From: Anaerolineales bacterium
GTDB lineage: Bacteria > Chloroflexota > Anaerolineae > Anaerolineales > Villigracilaceae
Length of the DNA stretch: 64,000 nucleotides
Direction of reading: 5' to 3'
NCBI GenBank assembly: GCA_016934715.1
Contig: JAFGSI010000039.1
Location: 62,001-126,000, forward strand
The notes under the pieces are model-generated. The model saw only the letters and a program-made list of their open reading frames with translations, did not search any database and had not been told where the DNA came from. This document shows positions 17,803 through 34,066 of the stretch, piece by piece; position 1 is the first letter of the stretch, and each line of letters begins with the position of its first letter. Position numbers and translations under genes: made by a program.

Positions 17803-18117
17803 TCATCCGTAGGAGCAGCAGTAATCCACCGGCCCCTCGAGCTTCAGTTTGAAGGTTGCGTTGGCGGGGACTTCGAAGGTTTGGCCAGCTTTGAAGGTCT
17901 GCCATGCCGACTGGCCCGGCAGGAGCACTTCCATTTGCCCGTAGAGCATTTCCATCACCTCGCGGGCCCCGGTGCTGAATTCGTATTCACCGGGCAGCAT
18001 AAAACCGAGTGTCTTGCGCGTGCCGTCGGCGAACAGGATCGTGCGGCTGGTAACCTTCCCGTCGAAATAGAGATTGGCTTTCTTGATGACCGTGACGTTT
18101 TCGAACTGGTCTGCCAT
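17803..18117 (-). CDS. ppnP: Pyrimidine/purine nucleoside phosphorylase PpnP
   Basis: 104 residues, a single cupin-like domain of the PpnP (DUF1255, formerly YaiE) family. Visible landmarks are [23 protein letters not shown] at the start, [24 protein letters not shown] in the middle and [23 protein letters not shown] at the end. The family cleaves nucleosides with phosphate to give free bases and ribose-1-phosphate. It lies 37 bases after lctP on the same strand, with GGAGG upstream of its ATG, so the two are probably one operon. No functional link with lactate transport is known to me. Confidence 0.93.
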
Positions 18118-18154
18118 GAGGCTCCTCCTTTTGGAATTTGGGTTGCGAGATGAA

Positions 18155-19711
18155 TTAGAATGCCCAGGCCAGCGTCATGGCCGCTGCCACGGCGGTGATG
18201 ACCAGCGAGATCCCGAAGGTGACCCGCAGTACGCCAGCCTCCTCGCCGATCCGGCCGATGGCGGCCGAGGCGTTCTGCAGCTTGGCCGGCGAGATGACCG
18301 AGGCCAACCCGCCGCCGATCCCGCTGGCGGCGGCGATCAGCAGGCCGAGGGCGCCGATCTTCTCGGCCGTGGTCAGGTGCAGGGCAGTCAGCATGGCGAT
18401 TGCCGAGGCCTCCGAGCCGCTGACGAAGCCGGCCAGCAAGCCCAGGTAGGGAGCGGCCAGCGGGTAGAAACGCCCGAAGCCGGCCGAGGCGGCGTTGGCC
18501 AGCACGGCGACCATGTTGTGGCTCGGGTCGCTCAGGGTCCAATCCAATCCCTTGCCGGAGTGATTGATCATGTAGGCGATGGCGAAAAAGACTGCCGAGG
18601 CCAGCATCGGACGTGGGGCCCGTTTGATCCATTTTTGGAGCGATTCACCGAGCTGCTGCCTGGTCGGCCTAAGGAAGGGCAGGGCCAGCAGGGTGCTGAC
18701 CAGGATCCAGAAATAGGCCTGCCAGAACAGGCGCACCTTCTCCGGTGCTCCGGGGATGATCTCGAGTGGCATGGCCCAGGTCTGGAAGGTCAACTGGTAG
18801 AAGGGCAGGGCGGGGAGATTGACCAGCACGGCGAAGGCGACCAGGATCAGCCAGGGGGAGAGGGCAGCCCGCAGCGAAAGCCGGGCTCCGGCAGCCCGAT
18901 CGGCCTCGTTCAGGAGGCTCCGGTCGTAGAGTCTGCTTCGTGTAGCCACTAAATACGCCAGCATGATCACGACGACGCCCAGGCCGGCCGCCACGCCGGT
19001 CAGGGGCACCAGGTGCAGGCTGTTCATCCCGATCGCGATGGCCCCCGCGGTCAGTCCTGCAATTAATGCGGGTAGCAATCCCTTCCAGACCAGCTTCCAT
19101 TTACCGACGATCCACAGCATTCCCAGGGCGATGCAGGTGCTGATGACCGGCATGAAGCGGGCGAAGTACCCGCCGACCTCGTCCACCGGCAGACCGACGA
19201 AGCCCGAGAAGACGACCACCGGCACGCCCAGCAGGGCGTAGGTGCACAGGGCATCGTAGCCCAGGGCGGGCAGGGCGATGGCGACGAAGGATGAGTAGCC
19301 CAGTGCCAGCATGATCGGCGGCAGGATCGAGACCGGAGTGGCGCCCATGGCGGCGAGCAGGGTCCCGAAACCGACGTTGACGATCATGATCTGGACGACC
19401 TGGTTGTGTGGGGCGATCGCCTTGAGCAACGTCACCACCCTGGCAATGGCCCCCGTCTCAGCCATGATGAAGACTTGCAACAGCGAGGTGGCCACCATCA
19501 GTGTGATCGGGAAGGAGGCTACCACGCCGGCCAGACTGGCTGTCAGTGCCACCCGCAGCGGGGTCTGAAAATACAGCCAGGCGACCAGGGCAGTGGCCAG
19601 CCAGCCGATGATCCCGGCCACGTCAGCGGCCGTCCGGCGCCAGATGAGCAGGATGAGGACGATCAGGATGGGCAGCAGGGCCAGAACGACGGCGGGTAGA
19701 TCCAAGGTCAC
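18155..19711 (-). CDS. lctP: L-lactate permease, LctP family
   Basis: 518 residues with about 13-14 transmembrane helices. Family marks are visible: [29 protein letters not shown] near residue 60, [26 protein letters not shown] near 115, [24 protein letters not shown] near 170, and [24 protein letters not shown] with [21 protein letters not shown] near the C-terminus. LctP proteins carry lactate or glycolate with protons. GGAGGTGACC lies before the ATG at 19711. With ppnP it forms a two-gene operon. The presence of a lactate carrier fits an organism that ferments or oxidises organic acids. Confidence 0.92.
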
Positions 19712-19834: not shown

Positions 19835-20524
19835 TTATTCGGTAATGACCTTGTGGGCCGGTTGGATGGGACGCCCGGCCGGTCGCGGCAGGAACCAGGC
19901 CCCGATCCCGGCCAGGAGGGAACCCAGGCCGATGAGGGTCAAGGCTGCGTGCCAGACGTCGGCGTAATTGACCCCGCCGATGGTGTGGGTCGGGGCCATC
20001 AGGAATTGGATCGTCAGAGCCAGCAGACCACAGGCACCCAGGGCGAAAGCTGCCGCCTTCCCGCCGGTCTGGTCTTCCCCGGCCGGTTTTTCGTAGTTGA
20101 CCCCCTGCCAGATCCCCGGAATGCCGAAGAGCAGGAAGATGATCAGGGTCAGGACGTTGGTGTACAGAACGGCGTCCACCGGCAGCGACCCGCCGCGCAG
20201 GGCGCGCGAGGCGACCAGGTGAATGGCGTTGATGGCGGTGCCGATAATCAGGGCGATCAGGGCGTCGCGATAGGCTTTCCTGGTCCCCTTGATCAACTGG
20301 ACCACCGCCCGCACGCCGAGGATCCCGGCCGCGATACCGATCAGGACGAACAGGATCCATAGCCACTGGTAGGGGGCGATTCCGGAAAAACTCTCGCCAA
20401 AACCGGTCGGGTTGAGCGCCACGCAGGTCGTCCCGGCGCCGCCCATCAGAGTGAAAAAGGCCGTCAGACTCATGAAAACGATCCCGACGATGCGCAGGGT
20501 TTTGGCCCACCATGTGTTTCTCAT
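19835..20524 (-). CDS. Small membrane protein A2 of the 19.8-27.6 kb redox cluster
   Basis: 229 residues, about seven transmembrane helices. I do not recognise a named family, but it resembles the gene at 26396-27172. Both have an early Cys (34 here, 44 there), a helix preceded by a Gly-x-Leu-Pro loop, and two His exactly 12 residues apart near a late helix (H180 in PTHTIGGVNY and H192 in DVWHAAL; H164 and H176 in the partner). Such paired membrane His can bind heme, so I infer a heme- or quinone-related subunit. ATG at 20524 has AGGAGG at good spacing. A CRP-like site at 20587-20602 lies about 41 bp above a CATACT -10, giving it its own promoter. Confidence 0.82.
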   Translation of the reverse strand: MRNTWWAKTLRIVGIVFMSLTAFFTLMGGAGTTCVALNPTGFGESFSGIAPYQWLWILFVLIGIAAGILGVRAVVQLIKGTRKAYRDALIALIIGTAINAIHLVASRALRGGSLPVDAVLYTNVLTLIIFLLFGIPGIWQGVNYEKPAGEDQTGGKAAAFALGACGLLALTIQFLMAPTHTIGGVNYADVWHAALTLIGLGSLLAGIGAWFLPRPAGRPIQPAHKVITE

Positions 20525-20586
20525 AACGATCCTCCTTTTCCTCATTTGACGTTGATTAAAGTATGTACGCTTTCTCGGTACGTGTA

Positions 20587-20602
20587 TGTGATAAAAGTCA
20601 CG
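20587..20602 (-). promoter_or_regulatory. CRP-like operator for gene A2
   Basis: TGTGATAAAAGTCACG matches the TGTGA-N6-TCACA pattern at nine of ten positions. Its centre (20594.5) is 41.5 bp above a start site predicted from CATACT at 20560-20565 on the minus strand, the class II activator position. Confidence 0.55.
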
Positions 20603-20608
20603 CAGTGG

Positions 20609-21202
20609 TTACGCCAGGGCGAAACCTAACACGAATGCAGCAGTCATCAAAAGCAACAGGCCCGGCAGGATTTTGAGGATTGTCGCCTGCGACAGCACAG
20701 GCCTGCCAGCCTTGAGAAAGGACAGCATCAATCCCCCTAAACCAATGAGCGCACCACCCGCGCCCACCAGGGCGAATCCAGGGGCGGCGCGGCCGCTCAG
20801 GGCCCAGGCGATCGGGAGCAGGAAGATCGTCAGCCCGGCAATGCCGTGGACGATTGTCAGGAGGTAGACTGGCAGCCGGCCGCGGAATGGCACCAGGCGG
20901 GTGAACAGGATGGCCAGGAAGCCGAGGACGGCAAAGACCAGGTAGCCGGCCCGGAGCAGGAGCCAGTGCTCCCAGACCAGACCGAGCGACAGGCTGAGCG
21001 GGATGGTCGTTGAGAGGATGACGACGATCGGGCTGTCCAGGGCCTCCAGTCCCAGGATGATGAGCAGCAGGCTGGCGACGAGCAGCATACCGAATCCGAC
21101 CGTGTATGCAAAGATCGGCAGGGCTTCGGCACCGTCGATGCCGATAGCCACCTGCCAGGCGGCCAGCAGGCCGGTCAACAACAGCAGGATCCGGGCGGTC
21201 AC
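20609..21202 (-). CDS. Small membrane protein B2 of the redox cluster
   Basis: 197 residues, six or seven transmembrane helices, family not recognised. It is clearly related to the gene at 25633-26244. Shared segments include LLLIILGLEALDSPIVVIL / LLLIFLGLGILSSPYVLTV, LGFLAI / VGFLAI, the single conserved intramembrane His in VHGIAGLTIFLLP / FHGVAGLVIFLGP (His119 here), and a C-terminal GAGGALIGLGG / GVGGLLIGLGG followed by a Leu-rich helix. The shared HG motif could bind heme or quinone. Start is GTG at 21202, with no clear ribosome-binding site. The longer open frame to 21404 is in another phase and is a shadow. It lies between the hemerythrin gene and A2. Confidence 0.82.
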   Translation of the reverse strand: MTARILLLLTGLLAAWQVAIGIDGAEALPIFAYTVGFGMLLVASLLLIILGLEALDSPIVVILSTTIPLSLSLGLVWEHWLLLRAGYLVFAVLGFLAILFTRLVPFRGRLPVYLLTIVHGIAGLTIFLLPIAWALSGRAAPGFALVGAGGALIGLGGLMLSFLKAGRPVLSQATILKILPGLLLLMTAAFVLGFALA

Positions 21203-21502
21203 GGTGATTTTTATGGTCTGTAGATCGGGTGGAAACCCTCGTCTTTCGGCGAGCCGTTTTCAACCCTTCTCCTTTCGGAAGGTGTTTGAAAAAGAGGTTG
21301 TAGGCGCTGCTCGCGTGGAGCAAACGGTGTGTCCTTTTCCATAAGAAATTGCGGACAGGGGTGGCTGCTGGCGGCCAATGCCCAGCGTCAAGGGAATGAC
21401 CCATGGAACGCAGGTTGCCTTGTGGTCAACAGGCTGCTGTCGGCCAGCTTGTGCGTGCGGAGCCTGGAATGGGCTTCCGGCCCCGCTGCTAGCCGCCGCC
21501 TT
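21203..21502. other. 300-bp intergenic stretch with an imperfect hairpin
   Basis: No convincing gene. An inverted repeat at 21257-21293 pairs TTTTCAA with TTTGAAAA and CCTTC with GAAGG. It could end the hemerythrin transcript or shape the leader of the B2 gene. I see no clear promoter with a good -35 here. Confidence 0.4.
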
Positions 21503-22078
21503 TCAGTCGGGAGCGGATGAGATGGTCTTGCGGCTTTCCTTCTCGAGCACTTCTGCCAGGGCCGGATATTTTTCCGGGATACCTGCTTTTCCTTCTTCGC
21601 CAAGGGCCTGCTCGAAGTCAGTGTTCACTTGTTCCTGCTGGTCAGGTGGGATGGCACGGTCGGCCATTGGAAAGAGGACCCTGTCTTCTTTTTGGATGTG
21701 TTGTTGAAGAAGGGCCACATAGCCGAAGGCGTTCTGCACCACGGCACTGCGGGCGGATAGGTCGCCGGCCTCCCATTTTTGGGCTGCGTCGTTCAGCGCG
21801 CTCGTGAAGGCCCGGCCCTGTTCGTGTTCGGCAAGCATCACCCCGATGGGACCGCCGCTGGTCGGGATGCCCGCCTTGTTCATGGCCACGAAGAGAATGC
21901 CTTCCTCTTTTCGGTGATGGCTGCCATCGGCATAATTTCTGATGAACAGGGCCGCATTGATGAAGAACGCAGGTCGCATTTCCTGGCCTTGGGCAACCCG
22001 TTCGGCGGCGGTCTGCAGCGCGGCGAGCACACGTTCGATCACACGGTGTTCCTCCATCAGGATCTGGGTGGCATACAT
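21503..22078 (-). CDS. Hemerythrin-like domain protein
   Basis: 191 residues. An HHE-type hemerythrin fold: LMEEHRVIERVLAALQTAAER (first His), then FIRNYADGSHHRKEEGILFVAMN (HHxxEE), GPIGVMLAEHEQGRAFTSAL (HE) and ALLQQHIQKEDRVLFPMADRAI (HxxxED). These His and acidic residues would hold a di-iron site that binds O2 or NO. The length and layout match the family of cytosolic hemerythrins often found beside respiratory, nitrosative- or oxygen-stress genes. ATG at 22078 has GGAG at good spacing; the very long upstream frame is a shadow. It follows the prenyltransferase gene by about 80 bases on the same strand, so it may share a transcript with it. Confidence 0.93.
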   Translation of the reverse strand: MYATQILMEEHRVIERVLAALQTAAERVAQGQEMRPAFFINAALFIRNYADGSHHRKEEGILFVAMNKAGIPTSGGPIGVMLAEHEQGRAFTSALNDAAQKWEAGDLSARSAVVQNAFGYVALLQQHIQKEDRVLFPMADRAIPPDQQEQVNTDFEQALGEEGKAGIPEKYPALAEVLEKESRKTISSAPD

Positions 22079-22155
22079 ATTGGTCTCCTGGCTTGAAAAA
22101 ACGGTCCTGCCGGTCGGTGAGCGCTGGAAAACGGTCTGCTGCACCCGGGCGGGTT

Positions 22156-23022
22156 TCAGATCGAAAGCAGGATCATTGCCGCAAGCATGTACAGCGAGGC
22201 GTATTTGAACAGCCCAAAGTTGATCCGCTCGGTAGGCCGGAAGACGCTGGCGACCGCCAGCAGGAATAAACCGATCGACAGGACCACCAGCAGGCGTATG
22301 AAGCCCCACTGCATGCCGATCAGGATCCCGGCGGTTCCGATTGATAGGGCGGCGATCACGCTCGAAAGGGCGATGGTGAAACGCGTGGCCGGGAAGCCGT
22401 AGGTCGACGGGAAGGTCGGAATCTTTGCGGCCTGGTAGTCTGTGTGGTAGCGCATCGAGAAGGTCAGGATGTGGGTCGGGATCCAGAACAGGACCGCCAG
22501 GGTCAGCAGGACGCCGATGCCGTCGATCTGGCCCAGGCCGTAGGCCCGCCCGGCCAGGATCGGCATCCCACCGGCGATCCCACCCCAGACGATCGACCAG
22601 GCTGTGCGGCGCTTGAGCCACAGAGTGTAGACCACCACGTCGAAGAACAGCCCGGCGAAAACGATCAGCCCGTAGAGCGGGTTCATCGCCACCGCCAGAC
22701 CGACGCCCAGGACTGAAAGGACCAGCCCGAGGCGCACGGCCTCGGTCGGGGTGACGCGCCTGTCCGCCAGGGGGCGGTGGTGGGTGCGGTTCATCACCGC
22801 ATCGATATCGCGGTCGTACCACATATTGATGATCGTGCTGCCGGCAATCGCCAGGTACAGGCTGACCCCCAGGCCGAGGAAGTGGTACCAGTGCATCACC
22901 GGGCAGCGGGCACTCATATAGCCTGCCAGGCCGGTGGAGAGCAGCAGGCCGGTTTGCAATGACTTGGTCAGCGGCCAGTAGAGCTTGAATTTTGTCCTGA
23001 TCAGACGGAGCACAGAGTGCAT
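22156..23022 (-). CDS. UbiA-family prenyltransferase, heme-o-synthase (CtaB/CyoE)-like
   Basis: 288 residues, about nine transmembrane helices. The first Asp-rich motif is NMWYDRDIDAVMNRTHHRPL (NxxxDxxxD). The second catalytic region runs FWIPTHILTFSMRYHTDYQAAKIPTFPSTYG, which matches the DYxxAxxPxxP block of protoheme IX farnesyltransferase more than that of menaquinone or chlorophyll enzymes. The expected reaction is farnesylation of heme b to heme o, needed by some heme-copper enzymes. ATG at 23022 has GGAG six bases upstream; the longer frame adds a basic leader I consider unlikely. The presence of this gene supports a heme O/A cofactor in the neighbouring oxidase-like protein, as an inference. 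Confidence 0.82.
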   Translation of the reverse strand: MHSVLRLIRTKFKLYWPLTKSLQTGLLLSTGLAGYMSARCPVMHWYHFLGLGVSLYLAIAGSTIINMWYDRDIDAVMNRTHHRPLADRRVTPTEAVRLGLVLSVLGVGLAVAMNPLYGLIVFAGLFFDVVVYTLWLKRRTAWSIVWGGIAGGMPILAGRAYGLGQIDGIGVLLTLAVLFWIPTHILTFSMRYHTDYQAAKIPTFPSTYGFPATRFTIALSSVIAALSIGTAGILIGMQWGFIRLLVVLSIGLFLLAVASVFRPTERINFGLFKYASLYMLAAMILLSI

Positions 23023-23116
23023 TCGGTTTCTCCGGCGAGGAATAGGCTGATGATAATCGATAAATGGGCTGGTTGGATGCATCCTCTGGGTAGACGACAA
23101 GCCGTCCCCCGGACGA

Positions 23117-24019
23117 TCACGGATCTCTCACGCAGCGGAAGCCGACACCCGGGCTGTAGTACATCGGCGGGGCACTGTTGCGGACCCAAATGCGCAGGTC
23201 CATTTCATAGGTGTCCTTCGAGCCGCCGCGCAGGAGGCGGTCGCTTAAGCCGGGTTCCAGGTTGCCCATCCACTGCCAGACATTACCGGCCATGTCATAC
23301 AGGCCGTAAGGGCTGGCCGAGTCGAGCGTCCTATAATCGCCGTAGGTCTGGCCGTTGTAGAATCCGACCGGGCTGGTGCGCGAGCCGAATGACCCCATGT
23401 TCTCGAACGGGTCGCGGCTGGCGTAGTAATTGGCATTGTTGCGGGCGATCTCGTCGCCCCACGGGAAGGGCCGGTCGTCGTCGGTCCCGCGGGCAGCCTT
23501 TTCCCATTCGAGCTCGGTCGGCAGACGCCCCGCATAGTAGAGGCAGTAGTCCCGGGCTCCGAACCAGGAGACATTGGTCATTGGGTGGTTCTCCCAGCCG
23601 GGCACGACTGCGAAATGTTCCCCGTCGAAGGTGAAGCGTGAGGCCGGATCGTTGAGGGGCACGAAAATGTACTCGCCGGGTCCTATTTCGATCTCGTGCT
23701 TGGCGCCCAGGAATTCGTCGCCCGGGTAGAAGCCGACACCCCGATCGCCATCGATGCGCAGGAGGTCGTCGGACAGGGCCGCGTTCAGAAATGCCACGTA
23801 TTGGGCCACGGTCACGTCGGTGACCATGATCTCGTAGTCGTAGTCGAGCGTGACCGGGTCGTTGTGCTGCCCGGCGAGGAATTCCCCGGCCGGGATCAGG
23901 ACCCAGGTCTCGGGGTTGACGCCGGTTTCGAAGACCGGGACCGCCGCGTCCAGGTCTACGGTCCCGCAGGCCGAGACGAGTAGAACCAGGGTCAAGAGCG
24001 GGAAAAACAAGCGTTTCAT
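23117..24019 (-). CDS. SUMF1/FGE-domain lipoprotein coupled to the oxidase-like gene
   Basis: 300 residues. A lipoprotein signal ends LLVSAC at about residue 18. The rest is a formylglycine-generating-enzyme fold: WVLIPAGEFLAGQ near 45, a long insertion, ENHPMTNVSWFGARDYCLYYAGRLPTELEWEKAARG near 165, YDMAGNVWQWMGN near 255, and RLLRGGS...VGFRCVRD at the end. Two Cys that bind copper in true FGE are not both present, so the role is probably structural or as an unknown oxygenase. The start codon overlaps the stop of the 12-TM gene (TGATG at 24017-24021), a mark of translational coupling. SUMF1-type NirV proteins sit beside nitrite reductases in some denitrifiers; the parallel is suggestive only. 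Confidence 0.85.
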   Translation of the reverse strand: MKRLFFPLLTLVLLVSACGTVDLDAAVPVFETGVNPETWVLIPAGEFLAGQHNDPVTLDYDYEIMVTDVTVAQYVAFLNAALSDDLLRIDGDRGVGFYPGDEFLGAKHEIEIGPGEYIFVPLNDPASRFTFDGEHFAVVPGWENHPMTNVSWFGARDYCLYYAGRLPTELEWEKAARGTDDDRPFPWGDEIARNNANYYASRDPFENMGSFGSRTSPVGFYNGQTYGDYRTLDSASPYGLYDMAGNVWQWMGNLEPGLSDRLLRGGSKDTYEMDLRIWVRNSAPPMYYSPGVGFRCVRDP

Positions 24020-25494
24020 CACTGCACCTCCTCGGAGAGATCGTCCTGTTCCAGTTCGTGGGTCCAGCGGCCTTTCTTTTTGAACAGGTCGAGCAGCCTC
24101 CAGATCATGACCAGCGCCAGGACGACCAGCAGCATCCCCAGCCCGAAATCGATCAGCAGCATCAGGTTGTTGACCAGCGGCTGCTGGGTTGCCTCGGAGA
24201 TGAACAGGCGTTTCATTTCGAAGACCGTCACCGCTCCGAAGGCGATGTTGGACAGGATGATGATCGCCCAGCCGTACCACTGGCGCAGCCTGCCTTTCAG
24301 GCCGATCATGTCGCCGTAGTAGAGCAGGATGATGGTGGCGACGATCGCCGACAGGACGTGCCAGTGGCCGGTCAGTTCAATGCGCTCCTCGCGCGCCGGC
24401 CAGAGGCGGAAAATCTCATCCAGCCGGACGGCCATGAAGATGCCAAGCCCGCTGGTGGTGAAGTTCATGAAGACCATCTGCCACATCGGGCCGAAGCGCA
24501 GCGGGTCACGCAGCAGGGCCTTGAATTTCTGCCAGCCGGTCGGCTTTTCGATTTCGGCCACGCCCTGGCGAATGAGCTTGTCCCAGGTGAAGATGACCAG
24601 CATCAGCGCGCCCAGCATGGCCGGGGTGGCTCCGACGTAGATGATCATGTGGGCAATCGGCTGGAGCGAGGTGGTCACGCCCCACACGCCCAGGTTGAGC
24701 ACGATCGTTCCCAGGATGATCAGCGGCATGGCGATCTTGTGCAGGAGGCCCTTGAAGTCCAGCCAGCGCCCGAGGATCAGGGTCAGCATGATGGCGATCA
24801 GGGCCAGCATGATGTGCAGGTGGCCGATGATTGAGTACTGCATGGTGGTCTTTTCGGGCAGGCGGATGACGTTCTCGGCCAGGAAGACCTCGAAGCCGTT
24901 GCCGAAGAACGAACCCGGGATGGCCCCAAACAGGGCCGAGAGGATTGTGGTCAGGGCGGTGGCGAAGAAGGCCGTGCGCTCCACGTCCAAACCCTTCCTG
25001 GTGCGGGAGTAGGCCGGATCGGGCTGGGCGTATTCCTTCTGCCAGGGCCACAGGGCGATCGTCAGCAGGACGCCGGCGAAGAAGACCAGCGTCAGACCGG
25101 CGATGTACAGGCCGTGCAGGGCCCAGTTGTGCCCCCAGTAGGCGAAGCCCATGCCGAAGAGCATCGCCATCAGGTACCCGACGGTGATCAGGGCTCGCAC
25201 GGCGATCTTGTAGAATTCTTTCATCTTCAAAAGGCCGGTGATCATGTAGGTTTCGATGGCGACCACCGCCATGGCGATCGAGTGATACAGGATGATGATC
25301 CGCCCTTCGCGCTCGGCCTGGACCAGGTCCATGCCCAGGGCGCGCACGACCACGTCCCGGACCCCGTACTCGGCCATCGGTCCGGAAAGCATGCCGAACA
25401 GGGCCGTTTCCATTGCGATCATGGCGATCGCTACCAATATCAGACCCTTGGTGGATTTGAACAGGTAGCTCAGGCGTTCCTTGATGAACTGCAT
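24019..25494 (-). CDS. Divergent 12-TM heme-copper-oxidase-like membrane protein
   Basis: 491 residues with about twelve transmembrane helices. His71 (LYHSIAMAVVAIETYMITG), His225/227 (GHLHIMLALIAIMLTLILG) and His377/379 (GHWHVLSAIVATIILLYYG) fall in helices 2, 6 and 10, the helices carrying ligands in heme-copper oxidase subunit I. Sequence around these three helices is repeated within the protein (His, then Ala at +4, then Gly at +15/16). The HH pair on helix 7 that binds CuB in known oxidases and NO reductases is absent; a lone His282 lies on helix 8. I therefore call it oxidase-like, not an oxidase. ATG at 25494 has AGGAG six bases upstream. An FNR-like box governs its promoter. Substrate unknown. 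Confidence 0.8.
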   Translation of the reverse strand: MQFIKERLSYLFKSTKGLILVAIAMIAMETALFGMLSGPMAEYGVRDVVVRALGMDLVQAEREGRIIILYHSIAMAVVAIETYMITGLLKMKEFYKIAVRALITVGYLMAMLFGMGFAYWGHNWALHGLYIAGLTLVFFAGVLLTIALWPWQKEYAQPDPAYSRTRKGLDVERTAFFATALTTILSALFGAIPGSFFGNGFEVFLAENVIRLPEKTTMQYSIIGHLHIMLALIAIMLTLILGRWLDFKGLLHKIAMPLIILGTIVLNLGVWGVTTSLQPIAHMIIYVGATPAMLGALMLVIFTWDKLIRQGVAEIEKPTGWQKFKALLRDPLRFGPMWQMVFMNFTTSGLGIFMAVRLDEIFRLWPAREERIELTGHWHVLSAIVATIILLYYGDMIGLKGRLRQWYGWAIIILSNIAFGAVTVFEMKRLFISEATQQPLVNNLMLLIDFGLGMLLVVLALVMIWRLLDLFKKKGRWTHELEQDDLSEEVQ

Positions 25495-25535
25495 GTGCGG
25501 CTCCTTTGTGAGAGAATGCACGTACTTCCTCGTAC

Positions 25536-25577
25536 AAAATATCACAGATTGTCGAAAAAGTCTTTGACTTTCGTCAA
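25536..25577 (-). promoter_or_regulatory. FNR/DNR-like promoter of the oxidase-like gene
   Basis: TTGACTTTCGTCAA (25564-25577) matches the TTGAT-N4-ATCAA layout with a perfect inverted repeat. An extended -10 (TGATATTTT on the minus strand, hexamer 25536-25541) predicts a start near 25529, putting the box centre 41.5 bp upstream. That is the usual class II position for a Crp/Fnr activator. Confidence 0.65.
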
Positions 25578-25585
25578 GTTATCGC

Positions 25586-25618
25586 CCTCCCCCGTCGCTG
25601 TTTGCGGGACGGGGGAGG
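25586..25618 (-). terminator. Hairpin terminator after the B1 gene
   Basis: CCTCCCCCGTC (25586-25596) and GACGGGGGAGG (25608-25618) form an 11-bp perfect stem with an 11-base loop, 14 bases past the B1 stop on the minus strand. No T-run follows, but placement separates B1 from the FNR-box promoter. Confidence 0.6.
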
Positions 25619-25632
25619 TTCGGGATGGAGGT

Positions 25633-26244
25633 CTACCTCCGGATGTCTTTGACGAAGCCCCAGGTGAATGCCAGGGTCATCAGCAGCAGGAGCGGGGTCA
25701 GGATGGCCATCACGAAAGCCGGGCTGAAAAAGAGCAGCTGGGCACCGTTGGCGATGAAGGCCAGGGCGATCCCACCCAGGCCGATCAGCAGTCCGCCGAC
25801 CCCGACCATCCAGAAGCCCTTGGCGGCCTTTTTCGCGAAGAACGGGCCGAGGAAGATGACCAGCCCGGCCACACCGTGGAAGAGCGGGACCGAGATCTTG
25901 CGCCCGAGTTCGGCCCCGGCGATGCTGGTCACGGCGATGGCCAGGAAGCCGACCAGGGCGAACCATTTGAAGGCGCGTTTGTATTGTGGAAAGTACTGCT
26001 CTACCAGGCCGATCGAGATTCCGAGTGGAATCAGGCTGGCCACGGTCAGGACATAGGGCGAGGACAGGATGCCCAGGCCGAGAAAGATGAGCAGGAGACC
26101 GGAAACCAGCAGGACCAGGAAGCCCATGATGTAGTAGACGTCATACAGGGCTTTGGCCTTGCTCCAGCGGGTGTAAAAGCGCCAGAGCAGATAGGCTGCG
26201 GTCAGGCCGGTCAGCAGCAGGAACAGATTGTCGAGTGTGAACAT
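25633..26244 (-). CDS. Small membrane protein B1 of the redox cluster
   Basis: 203 residues, six or seven transmembrane helices. Unrecognised family, paralogue of the gene at 20609-21202 (see there for shared segments). The conserved intramembrane His is His123 in LFHGVAGLVIFLGP. The protein is slightly more basic between helices (RRFYTRWSKAKAL-like loop and QYKRAFKW). Two ATGs lie six bases apart; GGAGA is adjacent to the first, so the second (26244) has better spacing. A perfect CRP-like palindrome at 26331-26346 lies 41.5 bp above an AATAAT -10, and hairpins flank the gene on both sides, so it is a single-gene transcript under CRP-type control. Confidence 0.83.
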   Translation of the reverse strand: MFTLDNLFLLLTGLTAAYLLWRFYTRWSKAKALYDVYYIMGFLVLLVSGLLLIFLGLGILSSPYVLTVASLIPLGISIGLVEQYFPQYKRAFKWFALVGFLAIAVTSIAGAELGRKISVPLFHGVAGLVIFLGPFFAKKAAKGFWMVGVGGLLIGLGGIALAFIANGAQLLFFSPAFVMAILTPLLLLMTLAFTWGFVKDIRR

Positions 26245-26303
26245 GTGCATTCTCCTTGTGAGGTTGGGATTGCCTGCAGGGAGGCTGATACTCCCGCAAG
26301 TGT

Positions 26304-26346
26304 ATTATTGCACAGGGAGAACATGCCGGCTGTGACCTAGGTCACA
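26304..26346 (-). promoter_or_regulatory. CRP-like promoter of gene B1
   Basis: TGTGACCTAGGTCACA (26331-26346) is a perfect palindrome and a full match to TGTGA-N6-TCACA. The minus-strand hexamer AATAAT (26304-26309) is a five-of-six -10 that puts the site centre exactly 41.5 bp upstream of the predicted start at about 26297. Confidence 0.7.
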
Positions 26347-26350
26347 AATG

Positions 26351-26377
26351 GGCGACGTGTTTTTTGGACACGTCGCC
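26351..26377 (-). terminator. Hairpin terminator after the A1 gene
   Basis: GGCGACGTGT (26351-26360) pairs with ACACGTCGCC (26368-26377) around a TTTTTGG loop, 18 bases past the A1 stop on the minus strand. It separates the lipoprotein-A1 operon from the B1 promoter. Confidence 0.7.
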
Positions 26378-26395
26378 TCCGGGATCACTCGGTTC

Positions 26396-27172
26396 CTATT
26401 CCGTCGCGCCGGTCAGGCGCTGCCACAGCCCGGGCCAGACGAACAGGACGATCAGGATGACGCAGGAGATCGGTGCCAGGGCGAACAGGGAGAAGCGTCC
26501 CAGCTGCTGCGCCGTGACGACGGCCAGAGGGATTCCGACCACCAGTTCGGCCACGCCGGCGACCAAACCAGTGACACGCATCCACTCCTTGGGTTTCATG
26601 ATGATCCCGACCGTCACGACTGCCCAACCGATCATGGCAACCAGGTGCAGGCGCTGGACCAGGGTGAAGATCGGGTCGCCGTGGGTGATGATCCGGCTGG
26701 TGCTCGAGATGCCGTTCATAAAGCAGAAGATATAGGCGACGCCGGCCAGCAGGGCCAGCAGGATCTGGCTCCAGGAGATCTTCCCGACCACCTTGAGCAT
26801 CAGGAAGTAGAGGATCACGTACGGCCAGAAGAGCGAGAAATAGATCGGCGGCAGGCCGGCGGCCATGTAGGGCACGTTGATGAACCAGCTGCCCAGCAAT
26901 GCCAGGACCAACGCCACCACCGACAGGAAGAAGGCCCAGTTCTTCTTGGTGAAAAAGCCGTAGGCGCTGACGGCGAACAGCACCCCGCCCAGCATGCCGA
27001 GGTCGGCCATCCCGGGGTGGATGTATTTGAGCAGGATCTCGCATCCCGGTTCGGCCGATTCGGCCCCCATCCCGATCCGGTACCACTGCATGAACAGGAC
27101 GATGTGCCCGATGATGCCCATCAGGGACGCGATCGTAGCCAGGATGCCTCCGAGCAGGTTCTTGTTTTTCAT
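26396..27172 (-). CDS. Small membrane protein A1 of the redox cluster
   Basis: 258 residues, about seven transmembrane helices, paralogue-like partner of the gene at 19835-20524. His23 and His52 lie near the first helices. His164 and His176, 12 residues apart (IITHGDPIFTLVQRLHLVAM), match the His180/His192 pair of A2. The AGLPPIYFSLFWPYVILYFL segment also aligns with A2. I recognise no named family. The His pattern suggests heme or quinone contacts, which is an inference. The ATG at 27172 has AGGAGA at ideal spacing. It follows the Cys-rich lipoprotein gene by 22 bases, forming a two-gene operon that ends in a strong hairpin. Confidence 0.83.
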   Translation of the reverse strand: MKNKNLLGGILATIASLMGIIGHIVLFMQWYRIGMGAESAEPGCEILLKYIHPGMADLGMLGGVLFAVSAYGFFTKKNWAFFLSVVALVLALLGSWFINVPYMAAGLPPIYFSLFWPYVILYFLMLKVVGKISWSQILLALLAGVAYIFCFMNGISSTSRIITHGDPIFTLVQRLHLVAMIGWAVVTVGIIMKPKEWMRVTGLVAGVAELVVGIPLAVVTAQQLGRFSLFALAPISCVILIVLFVWPGLWQRLTGATE

Positions 27173-27194
27173 GATCTCTCCTTCGTTAATGGAA

Positions 27195-27611
27195 TTAGGG
27201 TTGGGCGATCTCGCCGGTATGGCAAGAACAACCGTTGTAGTAGGGTGCGTCGTTGTGGGCGGCCACGTAGATGACCGTTCCCGGGTCGACCGTGAAATCA
27301 CAATCCTCCAGGAAGGTTGGATATTCCTCGTCATCCCAGGCCATGATCTCCAGATCGCAGGCCACGTAGACCGTCCCGCTCAGGTGGGCGTTGCACAGCG
27401 GGCCGCGGACCAGTTGGTCGACGTCCAGCGGCCGGCCGCGCACCTCGACGCTGACCGGCGCCGGCTCCAGGTCCGTGGCCGAAAGCAGGTCCGGGAAGGC
27501 GTCCGGGTCGCTGACGTAGGTGACGCTGCCCTCCGGACAGGCCGGCTGGCTCCCGCAGGCGGACAACAGGATCAGCAACAGCCCAAAACAGATCGTGCCG
27601 ACAGGCTTCAT
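27195..27611 (-). CDS. Cys-rich lipoprotein with a C-terminal CxCH motif
   Basis: 138 residues. A short signal ends in LLSAC (lipobox), so the protein should be anchored outside the membrane. The mature part contains seven or more Cys and ends ...NDAPYYNGCSCHTGEIAQP. CSCH is one residue short of the c-type heme motif CxxCH, while the following TGE is typical of heme sites. I cannot say whether it binds heme, copper or neither. No family recognised. ATG at 27611 has GGAG eight bases upstream. It is first in an operon with A1; a palindrome centred about 41.5 bp above its predicted start site suggests Crp/Fnr control. Confidence 0.82.
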   Translation of the reverse strand: MKPVGTICFGLLLILLSACGSQPACPEGSVTYVSDPDAFPDLLSATDLEPAPVSVEVRGRPLDVDQLVRGPLCNAHLSGTVYVACDLEIMAWDDEEYPTFLEDCDFTVDPGTVIYVAAHNDAPYYNGCSCHTGEIAQP

Positions 27612-27700: not shown

Positions 27701-27729
27701 GAATTCAGCCTGTATTGAGGAGAGGAAAG

Positions 27730-28404
27730 ATGGATCTGGCCGAGATGCTTTCCCGCACGAACCTGTTTGACCATCTGGACAACGCTGGGATGCGGACCCT
27801 CCTGTCCGGAGCGCAGCCGCGCCGGGTTGGCAAGGACGAATGGCTGACCCATTCCGGCGATGTGTGGCCGTATCTTTTCTTCCTCTGCAAGGGGGAGGTG
27901 GTCGCCGTCAAGGAGTCGGCCGAGGGGCGCAGCCTGGTCCTGGCGACCCTGCGCACGGGGGAGGTCTTCTGGGGCCTGGCATTGTTCCACGAGGCGGCGC
28001 CCATGCCGGCCGGCCTGCGTGCTGTCCAGGAGTCTGAAATCGTTCTCTGGCCGCGCCAGATGTTGCTGCCGCTTCTGCTGGCGGACGGGAGCCTGTCCTG
28101 GAAGCTGGCCGGGATGGTGATCGAACGCGTCCAGTTGGCCAGCGAGATCGTCGACCAATTGGCCTTCCAGCCGGTGGCCGGACGACTGGCTCGCCTGCTG
28201 GTGGAATCGGCCGGGCAGGGCGGGCCGGTGACCCGCGACCTGACCCTGGACGAGATGGCTGCCCGCATCGGCACGACCCGCGAGATGGTCTGCCGCTTCC
28301 TGCATCGCTTCTCCGACCGAGGGTTGATCGACATCACCCGCACCGAATTTTCGGTACGAGACCGGCAGGGGCTGGAGGAGATGGCCCGCCAGGGAAAAGG
28401 TTAA
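27730..28404 (+). CDS. Crp/Fnr-family regulator with CRP-like recognition helix
   Basis: 224 residues. N-terminal cyclic-nucleotide-binding-like barrel (about residues 10-120), long dimer helix near 125-150, and C-terminal winged helix (LTLDEMAARIGTTREMVCRFLHRFSDRGLI). The recognition helix has Arg184, Glu185 and Arg189, equivalent to the R-E-R trio by which CRP reads TGTGA. Fe-S cysteines of FNR are absent, and the nucleotide-binding Arg/Glu set is not obvious, so the ligand may be heme or unknown. ATG at 27730 has GAGGAGAGG upstream. Divergent from the lipoprotein operon, with a shared operator region; convergent with the second regulator, two bases apart. Confidence 0.92.
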   Translation: MDLAEMLSRTNLFDHLDNAGMRTLLSGAQPRRVGKDEWLTHSGDVWPYLFFLCKGEVVAVKESAEGRSLVLATLRTGEVFWGLALFHEAAPMPAGLRAVQESEIVLWPRQMLLPLLLADGSLSWKLAGMVIERVQLASEIVDQLAFQPVAGRLARLLVESAGQGGPVTRDLTLDEMAARIGTTREMVCRFLHRFSDRGLIDITRTEFSVRDRQGLEEMARQGKG

Positions 28405-28406
28405 TG

Positions 28407-29126
28407 CTATGGTTGCCGGGGAAACTCGTCCTGGGCGAATTGCGACCTGATTTGCGCCAGATCGGTCAAGGTATCCAGTGAGAGCACCGCAATTTCGGTC
28501 CGGCTCACCCGGATCGCCCCGGCGCTCTTGAGAGCGTTGAGTGAGCGGCTGATGGCTTCCGGTACGCTGGCGATCCGGGAGGCCATCTCCTCAATGGAGC
28601 AGTCGCGCCGCTGGATCGTCTGGCGGCCGTGGCTGCTCAGGTCGAGAATCAGCTTGGCGGTGCGGGCGACAACCGAGCGGAAGGACAGATCTTCATAGTG
28701 GGCGATCATCTGTCGACTGCGCGTAGCCAAAACGCTCAGTAAGCTCAACCCCAGATGCGGGTAGCGGCGGACCAATTTATGGAAGGCGTCGTGTTCCACC
28801 CGCCAGACAGTGCACTTCTCGATCGCCACCGCGCTGGTCGGATTCGGCCCGCCGTCCAGGACGGCGACCTCATTAAACATGATCACCGGCTGGATGACAG
28901 CCATGATCGTTGTCTGTCCCTGCGGGCCGATCTTGCACAGGTGGACGCGCCCGTGCAGCAGGACGAACATTCCCGCGCAGGGATCGCCCTCGGAAAAGAG
29001 GGTCACCCCGGCAGGAAAATGGTGCACCTGCCCGCTGGCGACGATCGTGTGCAGGTCGCCTAATCCCATTTTCTGAAAGTGGCGAACCGATTGCAGTCTG
29101 CCAATCAGGTCTTCCTGGCTGTCCAT
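28407..29126 (-). CDS. Crp/Fnr-family regulator with FNR/DNR-like recognition helix
   Basis: 239 residues. Sensor barrel near residues 20-130 (FPAGVTLFSEGDPCAGMFVLLHGRVHLCKIG), dimer helix, and winged helix with CSIEEMASRIASVPEAISRSLNALKSAGAI. Glu190, Ser193 and Arg194 match the E-S-R trio by which FNR and DNR read TTGAT. There is no N-terminal Cys cluster for a 4Fe-4S centre, so an NO- or heme-sensing DNR/NNR-type role is likelier than O2-sensing FNR. A perfect TATAAT (29135-29140) ends eight bases before the ATG and there is no ribosome-binding site, so the transcript is probably leaderless. It ends convergently against the CRP-like regulator. Confidence 0.92.
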   Translation of the reverse strand: MDSQEDLIGRLQSVRHFQKMGLGDLHTIVASGQVHHFPAGVTLFSEGDPCAGMFVLLHGRVHLCKIGPQGQTTIMAVIQPVIMFNEVAVLDGGPNPTSAVAIEKCTVWRVEHDAFHKLVRRYPHLGLSLLSVLATRSRQMIAHYEDLSFRSVVARTAKLILDLSSHGRQTIQRRDCSIEEMASRIASVPEAISRSLNALKSAGAIRVSRTEIAVLSLDTLTDLAQIRSQFAQDEFPRQP

Positions 29127-29370: not shown

Positions 29371-29434
29371 CAACATTTAACACTTTCCCCCGATAAGATT
29401 CTTCTCCCATTTGTTGCCGCACAGGAGGAGCACC

Positions 29435-32400
29435 ATGCACCAATCCGAGAAATCCCGGCGACAGGCGCCCGGTCTGCCGCACCAGCAGGGGCTCTATAAC
29501 CCCAGTTTCGAGCACGACGCCTGCGGGATCGGGATGGTAGTCAACATCAACGGCCAGAGATCGAACCGCGTCATCCGCCAGGCGCTGATCGTGCTCGACA
29601 ACCTGACTCACCGCGGGGCGCGCGGTGCCGAACCCAATACCGGCGATGGAGCTGGGATCCTGATCCAGGTTCCGCATGCTTTTCTGCAGCGCAAGGCCAA
29701 CGGCAAGGGTTTCAGCCTGCCAGATCCCGGTCAGTACGGCGTCGGGATGCTTTTCCTGCCCCCTGATGTCACCCATCGGCGGGCGATCGAAGTGGAGTTC
29801 GAGAAGATCGTCGCCGCCGAGGGCCAGCGGGTGATCGGCTGGCGGTCGGTGCGGCGGAACAAGGCCGGGATCGGCGCCACGGCCCTGCGGGTCGAGCCGA
29901 AGATCCGCATGGTTTTTATCGGCCGGAATCCGGCCATCGCCAGCGACATCGACTTCGAGCGCAAGCTGTACGTCATCCGCAGGCGCTCCGAGAGCGAGAT
30001 CCGTTATGGCGGGCGCCTGGAAGGCGGGGAGTACTTCTACGTCTGCAGCCTGTCCTATAAGACGCTGGTCTATAAGGGCATGCTTGTTTCAAACCAGCTG
30101 CAGGGGTATTTCGTCGACCTGGCCGACGAGGACATGCAGAGCGCCCTGGCACTGGTCCACTCGCGTTTCAGCACCAACACTTTCCCGAGCTGGGAACGAG
30201 CCCACCCCAACCGCTACATTCTCCACAATGGCGAGATCAACACCCTGCGCGGTAACATCAACTGGCTGCGGGCCCAGGAAAATCTGTTCCAATCGGAAGC
30301 CTTCGGCATGGATATGAAGAAGTTGCTGCCAATCGTCCATCCTGATGGGAGCGACTCGGCCATGTTTGACAACTACCTGGAATTCCTGGTCCTGGCCGGG
30401 AGGTCGCTGCCGCACGTCATGATGATGATGATCCCCGAACCCTGGTCGCACCACGCGACGATGGACGAACCCCGGCGGGCCTTCTACGAGTACCACGCCA
30501 ACCTGATGGAGCCCTGGGACGGCCCGGCGGCGATCGCCTTCACCGACGGGATTCTGGCCGGGGCAGTTCTCGACCGCAATGGGCTGCGTCCATCGCGGTA
30601 CTACGTCACCCGCGATGACCAGTTGATCCTGGCTTCCGAGGTCGGGGTGCTCGATATTCCGGCCGGGGAGGTGGTCTCCAAGGGCCGGCTCGAGCCGGGC
30701 CGTATGCTGCTGGTCGACACCCGGGAAGGACGGATCATCAGTGACGAGGAGATCAAAGGGCGCCTGGCCGCCGAGCATCCCTACCGCGACTGGCTGGACA
30801 AGTACCAGGTTCGGCTGGAGGAGTTGCCGGAGCCTGGGGCCGGGCAGGTGCCGCCGTCCGACCCGGCGACCCTGATCCAGCGCCAGCAGGCCTTCGGGTA
30901 TACCACCGAGGAACTGCGCCTGCTGCTCGGACCCATGGCCGAATCCGGCGTCGAGCCGGTCGGGGCGATGGGCAATGATGTCCCGCTGGCCGTCCTATCA
31001 GAGAAGCCCAAGTTGCTGTACAACTACTTCAAGCAGCTCTTCGCCCAGGTGACCAACCCGCCGATCGATTCGATCCGCGAGGAACTGGTCATCGCCACGG
31101 AGGTGATGGTCGGGGCCGAAAGCAGCCTGCTGGCGCCAACCCCTCACAACTGTCACCAGATCCGGCTGGACTGCCCGATCCTGACCAACACCGAACTGGC
31201 TCAGATCCGCCACACGCGCATCCCGGGCTTCATCACCCTGACCCTGCCGATCCTCTTTCCGGCCGGGACGGGAGGGGACGGGCTGGCGTCAGCCATAGAT
31301 GAACTCTGCCAGGCGGCCGAGGCGGCGATTGCGCGTGGGATCAACCTGTTGATCCTGACCGACCGCGGCGTGGATGCCGAACATGCCCCCATCCCGGCCC
31401 TGCTGGCCGTCTCCGGGTTGCACCAGCATCTGGTTCGCAAGGGCACGCGAACCCAGATCGGCCTGATCCTGGAAAGCGGCGAGCCGCGCGAGGTCCATCA
31501 CTTTGCCGCCCTGATCGGTTTCGGGGCCACGGCGGTCAACCCGTACCTGGTCTTCGAATCGCTTGAGAACCTGATCGTCGACGGGACGCTGGTCGGCGTC
31601 GACTACCTGGCGGCCGTCAGGAACTATATCAAAGCGGCGGTCAAGGGGGTGGTCAAGACGATGGCCAAGATGGGCATCTCTACCATCAAGAGCTACAGCG
31701 GAGCGCAAATTTTTGAGGCCATCGGCATCCACCAGAGTGTGATCGAGAAATACTTCACCCGCACGCCCTCGCGCATTGGCGGGATCGACCTGGAGATCAT
31801 TGCCCGTGAGGCGGGGATGTTCCATCTCCGGGCTTTTCCCCGGCGCCCGGTCCATGTGCCTTCCCTGCCGACCGGGGGGGAGTACCAGTGGCGCCAGGAT
31901 GGCGAGTACCACCTGTTCAACCCCAAGACGATCCACACCCTGCAGCAGGCCTGCCGCAGAGGGGACTACGCCACCTTCAAGGAATACGCGCAGGCGGTGG
32001 ATGACCAGACTGGCCGATTGGGGACCCTGCGTGGCCTGCTGGCGTTCCGCTTCCCGCCTGAAGCGGTTCCGCTGGAGGAGGTTGAGCCGATTGAGTCGAT
32101 CGTGCGGCGCTTCAAGACCGGGGCGATGAGCTACGGTTCGATCAGCCAGGAAGCGCACGAAGCCCTGGCGATCGCCATGAACCGCCTGGGTGGGCGCAGC
32201 AATACCGGCGAGGGTGGTGAGGACCCGGCGCGCTTCGAGCCCTTGCCAAGCGGCGACTCGCGCCGCAGCGCCATCAAGCAGGTCGCTTCGGGACGCTTCG
32301 GGGTGACCAGCGAGTATCTGGTGAACGCCGACGAGATCCAGATCAAGATGGCTCAGGGCGCCAAGCCGGGCGAGGGGGGGCAGCTTCCGGGGCGCAAGGT

Positions 32401-34066
32401 CTATCCGTGGATCGCCCGGACGCGCTACTCGACCCCTGGCGTGGGATTGATCTCGCCCCCTCCGCACCATGACATCTACTCGATCGAAGACCTGGCCGAA
32501 TTGATCCACGACCTGAAGAATGCCAATTCCCTGGCGCGCATCAGTGTAAAGCTGGTCTCCGAGGTCGGGGTCGGGACGATTGCCGCCGGGGTTGCCAAGG
32601 CTCACGCTGACGTGGTCCTGATCAGCGGTTTCGATGGTGGGACTGGCGCCTCACCGGTCAGCAGCATCAAGCACGCTGGTCTGCCCTGGGAACTGGGTGT
32701 TGCCGAAACCCACCAGACCCTTGTCCTGAACAACCTGCGCGACCGGATCGTGATCGAGACCGACGGCCAGCTTAAGACCGGCCGTGACGTGGTCATCGCA
32801 GCTCTGCTGGGGGCTGAAGAGTTCGGATTCGCAACCGCCCCGTTGATCGTCCTGGGCTGCGTGATGATGCGTGTCTGTCACCTGGATACATGTCCGGTAG
32901 GCGTGGCGACCCAGAATCCGGAACTGCGCAGGAAGTTCAGCGGTGACCCGGCCCACGTGGTCAATTTCATGTCCTTCATTGCCGAAGATGTGCGTGAATG
33001 GATGGCCCGGCTCGGTTTCCGCAGCCTGGACGAGATGGTCGGGCGCTCTGACCGGCTCCAGGTTCGGGAGCCCATCGATCACTGGAAGGCCAGTGGCCTG
33101 GACTTCAGCGAGCTCCTCTACCAGCCGGATATGGAAGAAGAAGACTGGCGCGCCCAGCGCGGCAGCCGCGACCGCAGTCTGGAAGCCTGTCTTGATCGGC
33201 GGGTCCTGCTAGACCTGTGCAGGCCGGCCATTCAAAAGGGAGAGCCGGTCACGGCAGTCCTCCCGATCCGCAATATCCACCGGGTGGTTGGGACACTGGT
33301 GGGGAGCGAGATCACCCGCCGGCATGGTGCTGCAGGCCTGCCCGATGACACCATCCGGCTGCAATTTCAGGGCTCGGCCGGCCAAAGTTTTGGGGCTTTT
33401 ATCCCGAAAGGCATGACCCTGCTCCTGGAAGGTGACACGAACGATTATCTCGGCAAGGGCCTCTCAGGAGGCAAGATCATCGTCTTTCCGCCGGAGGGGG
33501 CACTTTTCCCCGCTGAGCAGAACGTGATCACCGGCAACGTGGCCTTCTACGGTGCTACCAGTGGCGAGGCCTATGTGCGCGGCCTGGCCGGGGAACGCTT
33601 CTGTGTGCGCAACAGCGGCGCCCTGGCGGTCGTAGAGGGGGTCGGCGACCACGGCTGCGAGTATATGACCGGCGGCCGGGTGGTTGTGCTTGGCCGCACC
33701 GGGCGCAACTTCGCCGCCGGCATGTCGGGTGGGGTCGCCTACGTGCTGGATGAAGATGGCTCCTTCCCGATTCGCTGCAACCACCAGATGGTCGACCTGC
33801 AACCGCTCGCTGACCCCGGCGAGATCGAGGAGCTCAAGGGCATGGTCCTGCGCCATGCCGATTACACCGGCAGCACCCTGGCACAGCGGGTGCTTGCCGA
33901 CTGGGAGAGCCTGCTGCCGAGGTTTGTCCGGGTGATGCCGCGCGACTACCAGCGGATGCAGCAGGCCTTCAGGGAGGTCGCGGCCTCCGGTTTGAGCGGC
34001 GAACAGGCAGTCATGGCTGCCTTCGAAATGAACAAGGGTGACGTCAGCCGCGTGGGCGGCAACTGA
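29435..34066 (+). CDS. gltB: Glutamate synthase large subunit
   Basis: 1543 residues, the normal length. The glutaminase (class II amidotransferase) domain opens with a short propeptide; cleavage should expose Cys30 (FEHDACGIG), the nucleophile. The central and FMN-binding synthase domains follow ([72 protein letters not shown]). The 3Fe-4S cysteines are in [19 protein letters not shown]. The C-terminal GxGxG repeat domain runs from about residue 1280. With GltD it makes two glutamates from glutamine and 2-oxoglutarate, using NAD(P)H. The ATG at 29435 has AGGAGGAG; gltD follows 13 bases after the stop. Confidence 0.97.

Follow-up and report, generated by a model that had tools for sequence, protein, structure and literature searches.

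A diverged Anaerolineae membrane protein family with a predicted oxidase fold, linked to heme O synthase: a candidate nitric oxide reductase

We analyzed a stretch of 64,000 nucleotides, hereafter the window, from the draft genome of an Anaerolineales bacterium (G000:C60:62001-126000; 4.1 Mb, 97.8% complete). A block of nine open reading frames (ORFs), all on the (-) strand, spans positions 19835-27611 and contains the gene for TM12, a 491-residue protein with twelve transmembrane (TM) helices. The best-supported conclusion is that the block represents a new family of membrane proteins that have an oxidase fold, are linked to heme O and possess an operon of their own under Crp/Fnr control. The fold of TM12 and its link to heme O are well supported, whereas its substrate is not. 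That TM12 is a heme-O protein of oxidase fold, with no claim on the substrate, is in our estimate quite probable. The evidence is evenly balanced for the fuller statement that TM12 is a catalytic heme-O enzyme with an oxidase fold, belongs to an undescribed, diverged family and is most likely a nitric oxide (NO) reductase (NOR). NO reduction is favored but unproven, and the role as a terminal reductase is one that we infer. The first-pass annotation of this DNA had likened the gene set to a respiratory or gas-detoxifying system with a catalytic subunit that could not be named. The conserved synteny, predicted oxidase fold, link to heme O synthase and Crp/Fnr-type box all speak for that proposal.

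The block and its flanking regulators are laid out as follows, in the order of transcription for the nine genes:

27195-27611, (-): Cys-rich lipoprotein, first gene; accessory
26396-27172, (-): memA, membrane protein, second
25633-26250, (-): mem205, small membrane protein, predicted seven-helix bundle, third
25564-25577, (-): palindrome of the Crp/Fnr type, TTGACGAAAGTCAA, some 80 bp upstream of the TM12 start
24019-25494, (-): TM12, 12-TM protein with a predicted heme-copper-oxidase fold, proposed catalytic subunit, fourth
23117-24019, (-): SUMF1-domain lipoprotein, core partner, fifth (PF03781, 1.8e-35)
22156-23022, (-): CtaB, heme O synthase, sixth (TIGR01473)
21503-22078, (-): hemerythrin, accessory, seventh (PF01814, 1.9e-19)
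20609-21202, (-): mem197, paralogue of mem205, eighth
19835-20545, (-): mem236, membrane protein, ninth and last
27715-28404, (+): Crp/Fnr regulator, divergent from the operon
28407-29126, (-): second Crp/Fnr regulator

The nine same-strand genes are located as the first-pass annotation had described them, and the two Crp/Fnr genes that it mentioned adjoin them. The ATG of the SUMF1 lipoprotein gene overlaps the TM12 stop. Searches against Pfam and NCBIfam gave a confident family for three of the nine block proteins, namely SUMF1, heme O synthase and hemerythrin, and their scores back the identities assigned earlier. No significant family was found in these databases for TM12 and the four small membrane proteins.

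Seven histidines of TM12 (H71, H127, H225, H227, H282, H377 and H379) and M229 were invariant in all 89 distinct full-length relatives (95/95 for the histidines when duplicates were counted), as well as in a 51-member alignment including relatives of 31-43% identity. The histidines are located on even-numbered helices: H71 on TM2, H127 on TM4, H225/H227 on TM6 and H377/H379 on TM10, each pair as an HxH motif, and H282 on TM8. The AlphaFold2 model calculated from the 51-member alignment contained twelve TM helices, with a predicted local distance difference test (pLDDT) score of 85.8 and a predicted template modelling (pTM) score of 0.90; the only low-confidence stretch comprised residues 198-208. 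Among the 50 Foldseek rows listed against the PDB, oxidase chains occupied ranks 1-35 with probabilities of 0.94-1.00, and unrelated rows reached 0.47 at most. Comparison by VIA with CcoN of cbb3 gave a Z of 22.7, with a root-mean-square deviation of 4.1 Å over 404 residues, followed by ba3 (21.1) and cNOR (20.8); the typical best VIA Z for helical models without a clear match is 14. The predicted model thus has a heme-copper-oxidase fold, in agreement with the initial description of the protein as oxidase-like.

The sequence of TM12 by itself gives no sign of this fold. None of the 51 members matched PF00115 (COX1) at E up to 1, the window protein included, nor did any match PF05940 (NnrS). 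Neither of the outcomes that the first-pass annotation had named as refuting was seen: TM12 has no match in a characterised family, and the block genes occur together at other loci. No description of the TM12 family or operon was found in a search of the full-text literature, with subscription papers outside that search; a 2024 survey reportedly covers new NOR families. H71, H377 and H379 sit on TM2 and TM10 like heme ligands, a positional match to oxidases that is not above helix-permuted controls. The spacing of H71, H225, H282, H377 and H379 may resemble the ba3 numbering. With relaxed hhalign settings, six of eight oxidase masters gave at least one alignment pairing H225 with the TM6 His and H377/H379 with the TM10 HxH; 18 of 196 helix-permuted controls matched three or more canonical ligands. 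We rejected a sequence proof of homology between TM12 and the oxidases, since the comparison was no better than these controls.

The link to heme O comes from the distribution of CtaB. The window CtaB scored 213.6 bits against TIGR01473, just above the curated cut-off of 210.3, and is the only CtaB found in its genome. We surveyed oxidases and CtaB in 61 genomes with TM12, taking the 58 that carried more than a TM12 fragment. A PF00115 protein was absent in 11 of the 58 (G072, G367, G427, G431, G439, G471, G498, G546, G549, G630 and G646). All eleven contained CtaB, as did 57/58 overall (the miss being G490); CtaA was present in none of the eleven and in 27/58 overall. In eight of the eleven, CtaB lay no more than 1.7 kb from TM12, and in G431, G498 and G630 it was on another contig. 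The comparison set of 30 genomes without TM12 included ten that lacked PF00115, only one of which (G403) had CtaB. Oxidase-less genomes therefore contained CtaB in 11/11 cases with TM12 vs 1/10 without (Fisher p 3.4e-5), and in the well-assembled subset (≥90% complete, ≤5% contaminated) in 5/5 vs 0/8 (p 7.8e-4), both values uncorrected for kinship.

The genome of the window has a single recognizable COX1 in a caa3-like operon (L140, G000:C75:32000-51900). By eye, this locus also encodes a cytochrome-c-fused subunit II and Sco-like and SURF1-like proteins, with molybdopterin and multiheme proteins upstream that resemble alternative complex III. CtaA was not detected in this genome, and the sole CtaB is located in the TM12 operon, so that the caa3-like oxidase may be served by this operon as well.

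Relatives of TM12 occurred in 18 of the 400 genomes sampled from the phylum and in 56 of the 298 sampled from the class Anaerolineae, about one in five; these bacteria are common but little studied. A public genome collection contained 297 stretches matching TM12; among the best 80 of these, the nearest relative, in a metagenome-assembled genome of Anaerolineales, shared 85% identity, and the members listed were Chloroflexota. The operon is also present in a cultured thermophile, Thermanaerothrix daxensis (L074). The gene order of the block recurs in about a hundred loci, which argues that the block is more than chance, and the genes recur together in synteny and not only singly. Close relatives provided 86 loci in which the sequence continues for 3.5 kb or more downstream of TM12; CtaB was found there in 84 of them, SUMF1 in 80, mem236 in 67 and mem205/197 proteins in 60. 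The 77 loci with enough flank upstream contained a Crp/Fnr gene (51 loci), a mem205/197 protein (44), memA (43) and the Cys-rich lipoprotein (13). Hemerythrin was near TM12 only in the window, in L066 and, on the other strand, in L109. These neighbor counts define a core of TM12, SUMF1 and CtaB with small membrane proteins, to which hemerythrin and the Cys-rich lipoprotein do not belong. A single unit of nine genes, as in the first-pass annotation, is not supported, these two being optional. In a diverged branch of 14 loci (identity about 31-43%), CtaB directly followed TM12 or was close to it in four (L121, L126, L127 and L128), and SUMF1 was found in none. A cluster of memA, CtaB and mem205 with further memA-like proteins and a Crp/Fnr gene, without TM12, was observed at L169:7276-12982 (G427:C1).

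The partner proteins were compared in the same way. The best solved-structure match of the SUMF1 lipoprotein is SUMF2. Only three of its cysteines are conserved among 94 rows: C21 of the lipobox, C162 and C299. The catalytic Cys pair of the formylglycine-generating enzyme (FGE) lies in the C-terminal core, and no Cys is conserved there in the 94 rows. A structural role of the lipoprotein is thus likelier than formylglycine formation. The paralogues mem205 and mem197 are 44% identical and keep one His each (58/59 and 72/73 rows, respectively). The conserved residues of mem236 are C33, H101 and H179 (P0006 numbering), with the two His kept in 67/73 and 72/73 rows. No His is conserved in memA, so that the original count of four small His-bearing membrane proteins stands for mem205, mem197 and mem236 and fails for memA. 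The mem205 model is a confident seven-helix bundle that matches only generic 7-TM folds, G-protein-coupled receptors and rhodopsins, with a best VIA Z of 14.0; no PDB sequence matched mem205, and Pfam gave scattered weak matches only. The Cys-rich lipoprotein, for which we found no confident family, carries a near-invariant C-x-C-H motif (CSCH, 16/17 rows) and possibly binds metal.

The sequence TTGA-N6-TCAA was enriched within 160 bp before TM12. The exact box was present in 14/88 loci, against a Markov expectation of 0.5 and a maximum of 3 over 200 runs; when one mismatch was allowed, 38/88 loci had it (8.9 expected, maximum 21). The exact box was rare before CtaB (0/95), SUMF1 (0/93), mem205/197 (1/116), mem236 (1/70), memA (0/54), Crp/Fnr genes (1/38) and other ORFs on the same (2/397) or opposite strand (3/329), in upstream windows that are approximate as ORF starts were assigned mechanically. 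No Fnr box with up to two mismatches was found between the first gene of the block and the divergent regulator. The box would fit control by the adjacent Crp/Fnr regulators. Its presence before TM12 and rarity before the other genes suggest that TM12-SUMF1-CtaB could be transcribed on its own. Across the whole window, TTGATNNNNATCAA with up to two mismatches occurred 32 times, largely inside genes, where 13.5 were expected and none of 100 shuffles reached 32.

The genes next to TM12 in other genomes point to NO, and their physical linkage is the sole evidence for NO that we retained. Two genomes of one genus, G460 and G624, have TM12, SUMF1, CtaB and finally NirS on one strand; this NirS (L174:378-2642 and L175:11522-13756) combines fused cytochrome c domains with cytochrome d1. 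A NirS gene lies about 10 kb from TM12 on the other strand in G005. With duplicate loci counted once, NnrS-like genes were near TM12 in seven loci, four of them on the same strand within 3.5 kb; DUF438-hemerythrin-PAS genes were near it in six, always on its strand and no farther away than 1.3 kb, with the domains verified in two; and NOR-like PF00115 genes in five, on the same strand and within 0.7 kb in four. CopD-like genes (10 loci), BON (17), NapH-like ferredoxin (9) and FmdE-like genes (6) also occurred.

The NOR-like PF00115 type (L151-L155, L035:10316-11944 and L124:8073-9689), which adjoins TM12 in some loci, reads WGLDMVADGN in TM6, with DGN where oxidases have GHP, in seven members examined by eye; Asn apparently replaces the CuB His in this type, with the TM7 HH and TM10 HxH kept. 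The short subunit II-like protein at L124:7635-8054, a weak CoxB match, has by eye what we take to be replaced CuA-motif cysteines. Three further PF00115 proteins (L145, L148 and L160) read GHPAQQ in TM6 by eye, with Gln for Tyr as reported for eNOR (PMC8756737). The published account of T. daxensis credits it with NirS, NrfA, bd and an A-family oxidase and makes no mention of NOR (PMC4653793). Outside the block, the window at 17803-19711 and 29411-34066 appears ordinary by eye, with small cupin-like, lactate permease-like and glutamate synthase-like proteins.

We propose the following mechanism. CtaB, whose gene lies two positions downstream of that for TM12, would make the heme O that TM12 carries. 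H71 on TM2 and H379 on TM10 could ligate a low-spin heme, and H377 on TM10 a high-spin heme o. A non-heme metal site that replaces the usual CuB trio might consist of H225 on TM6, M229 and/or H227, and H282 where TM8 begins. Electrons would come from the membrane quinone pool through a quinol donor, because no core gene encodes a recognizable cytochrome c or cupredoxin. The substrate would bind between heme o and the metal and would most likely be NO, reduced to N2O. The SUMF2-like lipoprotein may cap the outer face of TM12, the small membrane proteins may be accessory subunits or assembly factors, and the Crp/Fnr regulators would switch transcription through the box just upstream of TM12.

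Several results weigh against TM12 as a catalytic heme-O enzyme that reduces NO. The Foldseek E-values were marginal, the best being 9.1e-3 and none reaching 0.001. The hhalign probability was only 0.3% with the NOR-like oxidase profile and 1.2% with an oxidase profile built from 17 sequences. The score of the TM12-oxidase alignment was equalled by 63 of 196 controls with permuted helices. The TM7 His pair is missing, with no His at residues 250-272 of the window TM12 and none invariant there. The Tyr four residues after H225 is also missing, this position being M229 in 89/89 TM12 proteins; a Tyr on another helix, as in cbb3, is conceivable. We identified no electron-donor or input subunit for TM12. 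Among the oxidase-less TM12 genomes, five of eleven are under 90% complete and G471 has 9% contamination; G367 carries only part of TM12 and a CtaB interrupted by an internal stop, and TM12 is split in G498. A one-to-one link is further weakened by six TM12-less relatives with an oxidase that keep an operon-type second CtaB. As for NO, direct linkage to NirS is limited to one genus, NirS or NirK occurred in 20/48 genomes with TM12 vs 10/28 without (p 0.64), and neither was found in the genome of the window.

The six loci with an operon-type second CtaB and no TM12 are L161-L166 (G028, G120, G096, G255, G387 and G248), two of which adjoin a mem205/197 protein; this CtaB could be a remnant of a lost operon or be reused by other oxidases. 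Taken separately, NirS was present in 12/48 genomes with TM12 vs 2/28 without (p 0.07), a tendency in favor of TM12 genomes that was not shared by NirK, present above the cut-off in 12/48 vs 8/28. We dropped co-occurrence with NirS/NirK as proof of an NO role, since there was no joint association across genomes.

Foremost among the alternatives, though unlikely, is that TM12 is a heme-o quinol oxidase reducing O2 for microaerobic respiration or O2 removal. The nearest folds by Z, cbb3 and ba3, are O2 reductases, heme O serves bo3-type quinol oxidases, a Crp/Fnr-type box precedes TM12, and CopD-like copper proteins occur in 10 distinct loci. However, the usual TM6 Tyr is a Met, the TM7 His pair is absent, and the adjoining genes in other genomes suggest NO instead of O2. 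Second, and likewise improbable, TM12 could be a non-respiratory heme or metal protein with an NnrS-like role in sensing, binding or buffering NO. NnrS-like genes in seven distinct loci, the hemerythrin and DUF438-hemerythrin-PAS neighbors and the missing electron-input subunit would agree with this, whereas the absence of PF05940 matches, an hhalign probability of 1.35% against the NnrS-like neighbors and the dedicated heme O supply, which would suggest a catalytic high-spin heme, speak against it. Membership of TM12 in NnrS itself was rejected on the first two of these grounds. It is very improbable that heme O itself is the substrate or cargo of TM12, which would then be an alternative heme A synthase or a heme O carrier for canonical oxidases: the genome of the window does have a canonical oxidase, no detected CtaA and its sole CtaB beside TM12, but in eleven TM12 genomes there is no canonical oxidase that it could serve, 27/58 already have CtaA, and the fold of TM12 is that of an oxidase.

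Heme-copper oxidases and NO reductases set microbial O2 use and N2O release and are counted in genomes by sequence models. A family of the same fold that these models miss, present in 56 of the 298 sampled class genomes, would leave gaps in the inventories of respiration and denitrification for Anaerolineae, and would be a natural test of how far a binuclear active site can be rebuilt. A more specific version is possible but doubtful as a whole: TM12 may be a new oxidase-fold branch that sequence profiles do not reach, with a metal site rebuilt from H225, H227, H282 and perhaps M229, an extra cofactor site (H127 on TM4 and H227 on TM6) that is empty in canonical oxidases, and quinol-dependent NO reduction at heme o missed by profile-based nitrogen-cycle surveys. 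The question is directly testable because the cultured T. daxensis carries the operon.

Among known systems, NnrS is a heme- and copper-containing NO-response protein; TM12 is likewise a polytopic membrane protein with conserved His, but lacks the family match and any profile similarity. The block lipoprotein shares its domain (PF03781) and its best solved match with SUMF1/SUMF2, and differs from FGE in having no conserved Cys at the place of the catalytic pair. Like subunit I of the heme-copper oxidases (PF00115; cbb3, ba3 and cNOR), TM12 has a predicted 12-helix fold, His on TM2, TM6 and TM10 (HxH) and a heme O synthase alongside. Unlike them, it has no PF00115 match (0/51) and no CuB/FeB-type TM7 His pair, carries extra invariant His on TM4, TM6 and TM8 and a Met in place of the TM6 Tyr, and has a SUMF1 lipoprotein as its partner where they have a cupredoxin or cytochrome c subunit. 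With eNOR and other two-subunit NO reductases, TM12 shares the oxidase fold and the proposed NO chemistry. eNOR, likewise reported in Anaerolineales, has a PF00115-type subunit I with Gln replacing Tyr and a cupredoxin subunit II, whereas TM12 is not a PF00115-recognized protein with Gln for Tyr and has no such subunit II (PMC8756737). Finally, the window protein resembles CtaB/CyoE in scoring above the TIGR01473 curated cut-off, and differs in that it adjoins TM12 and not the canonical oxidase of its genome.

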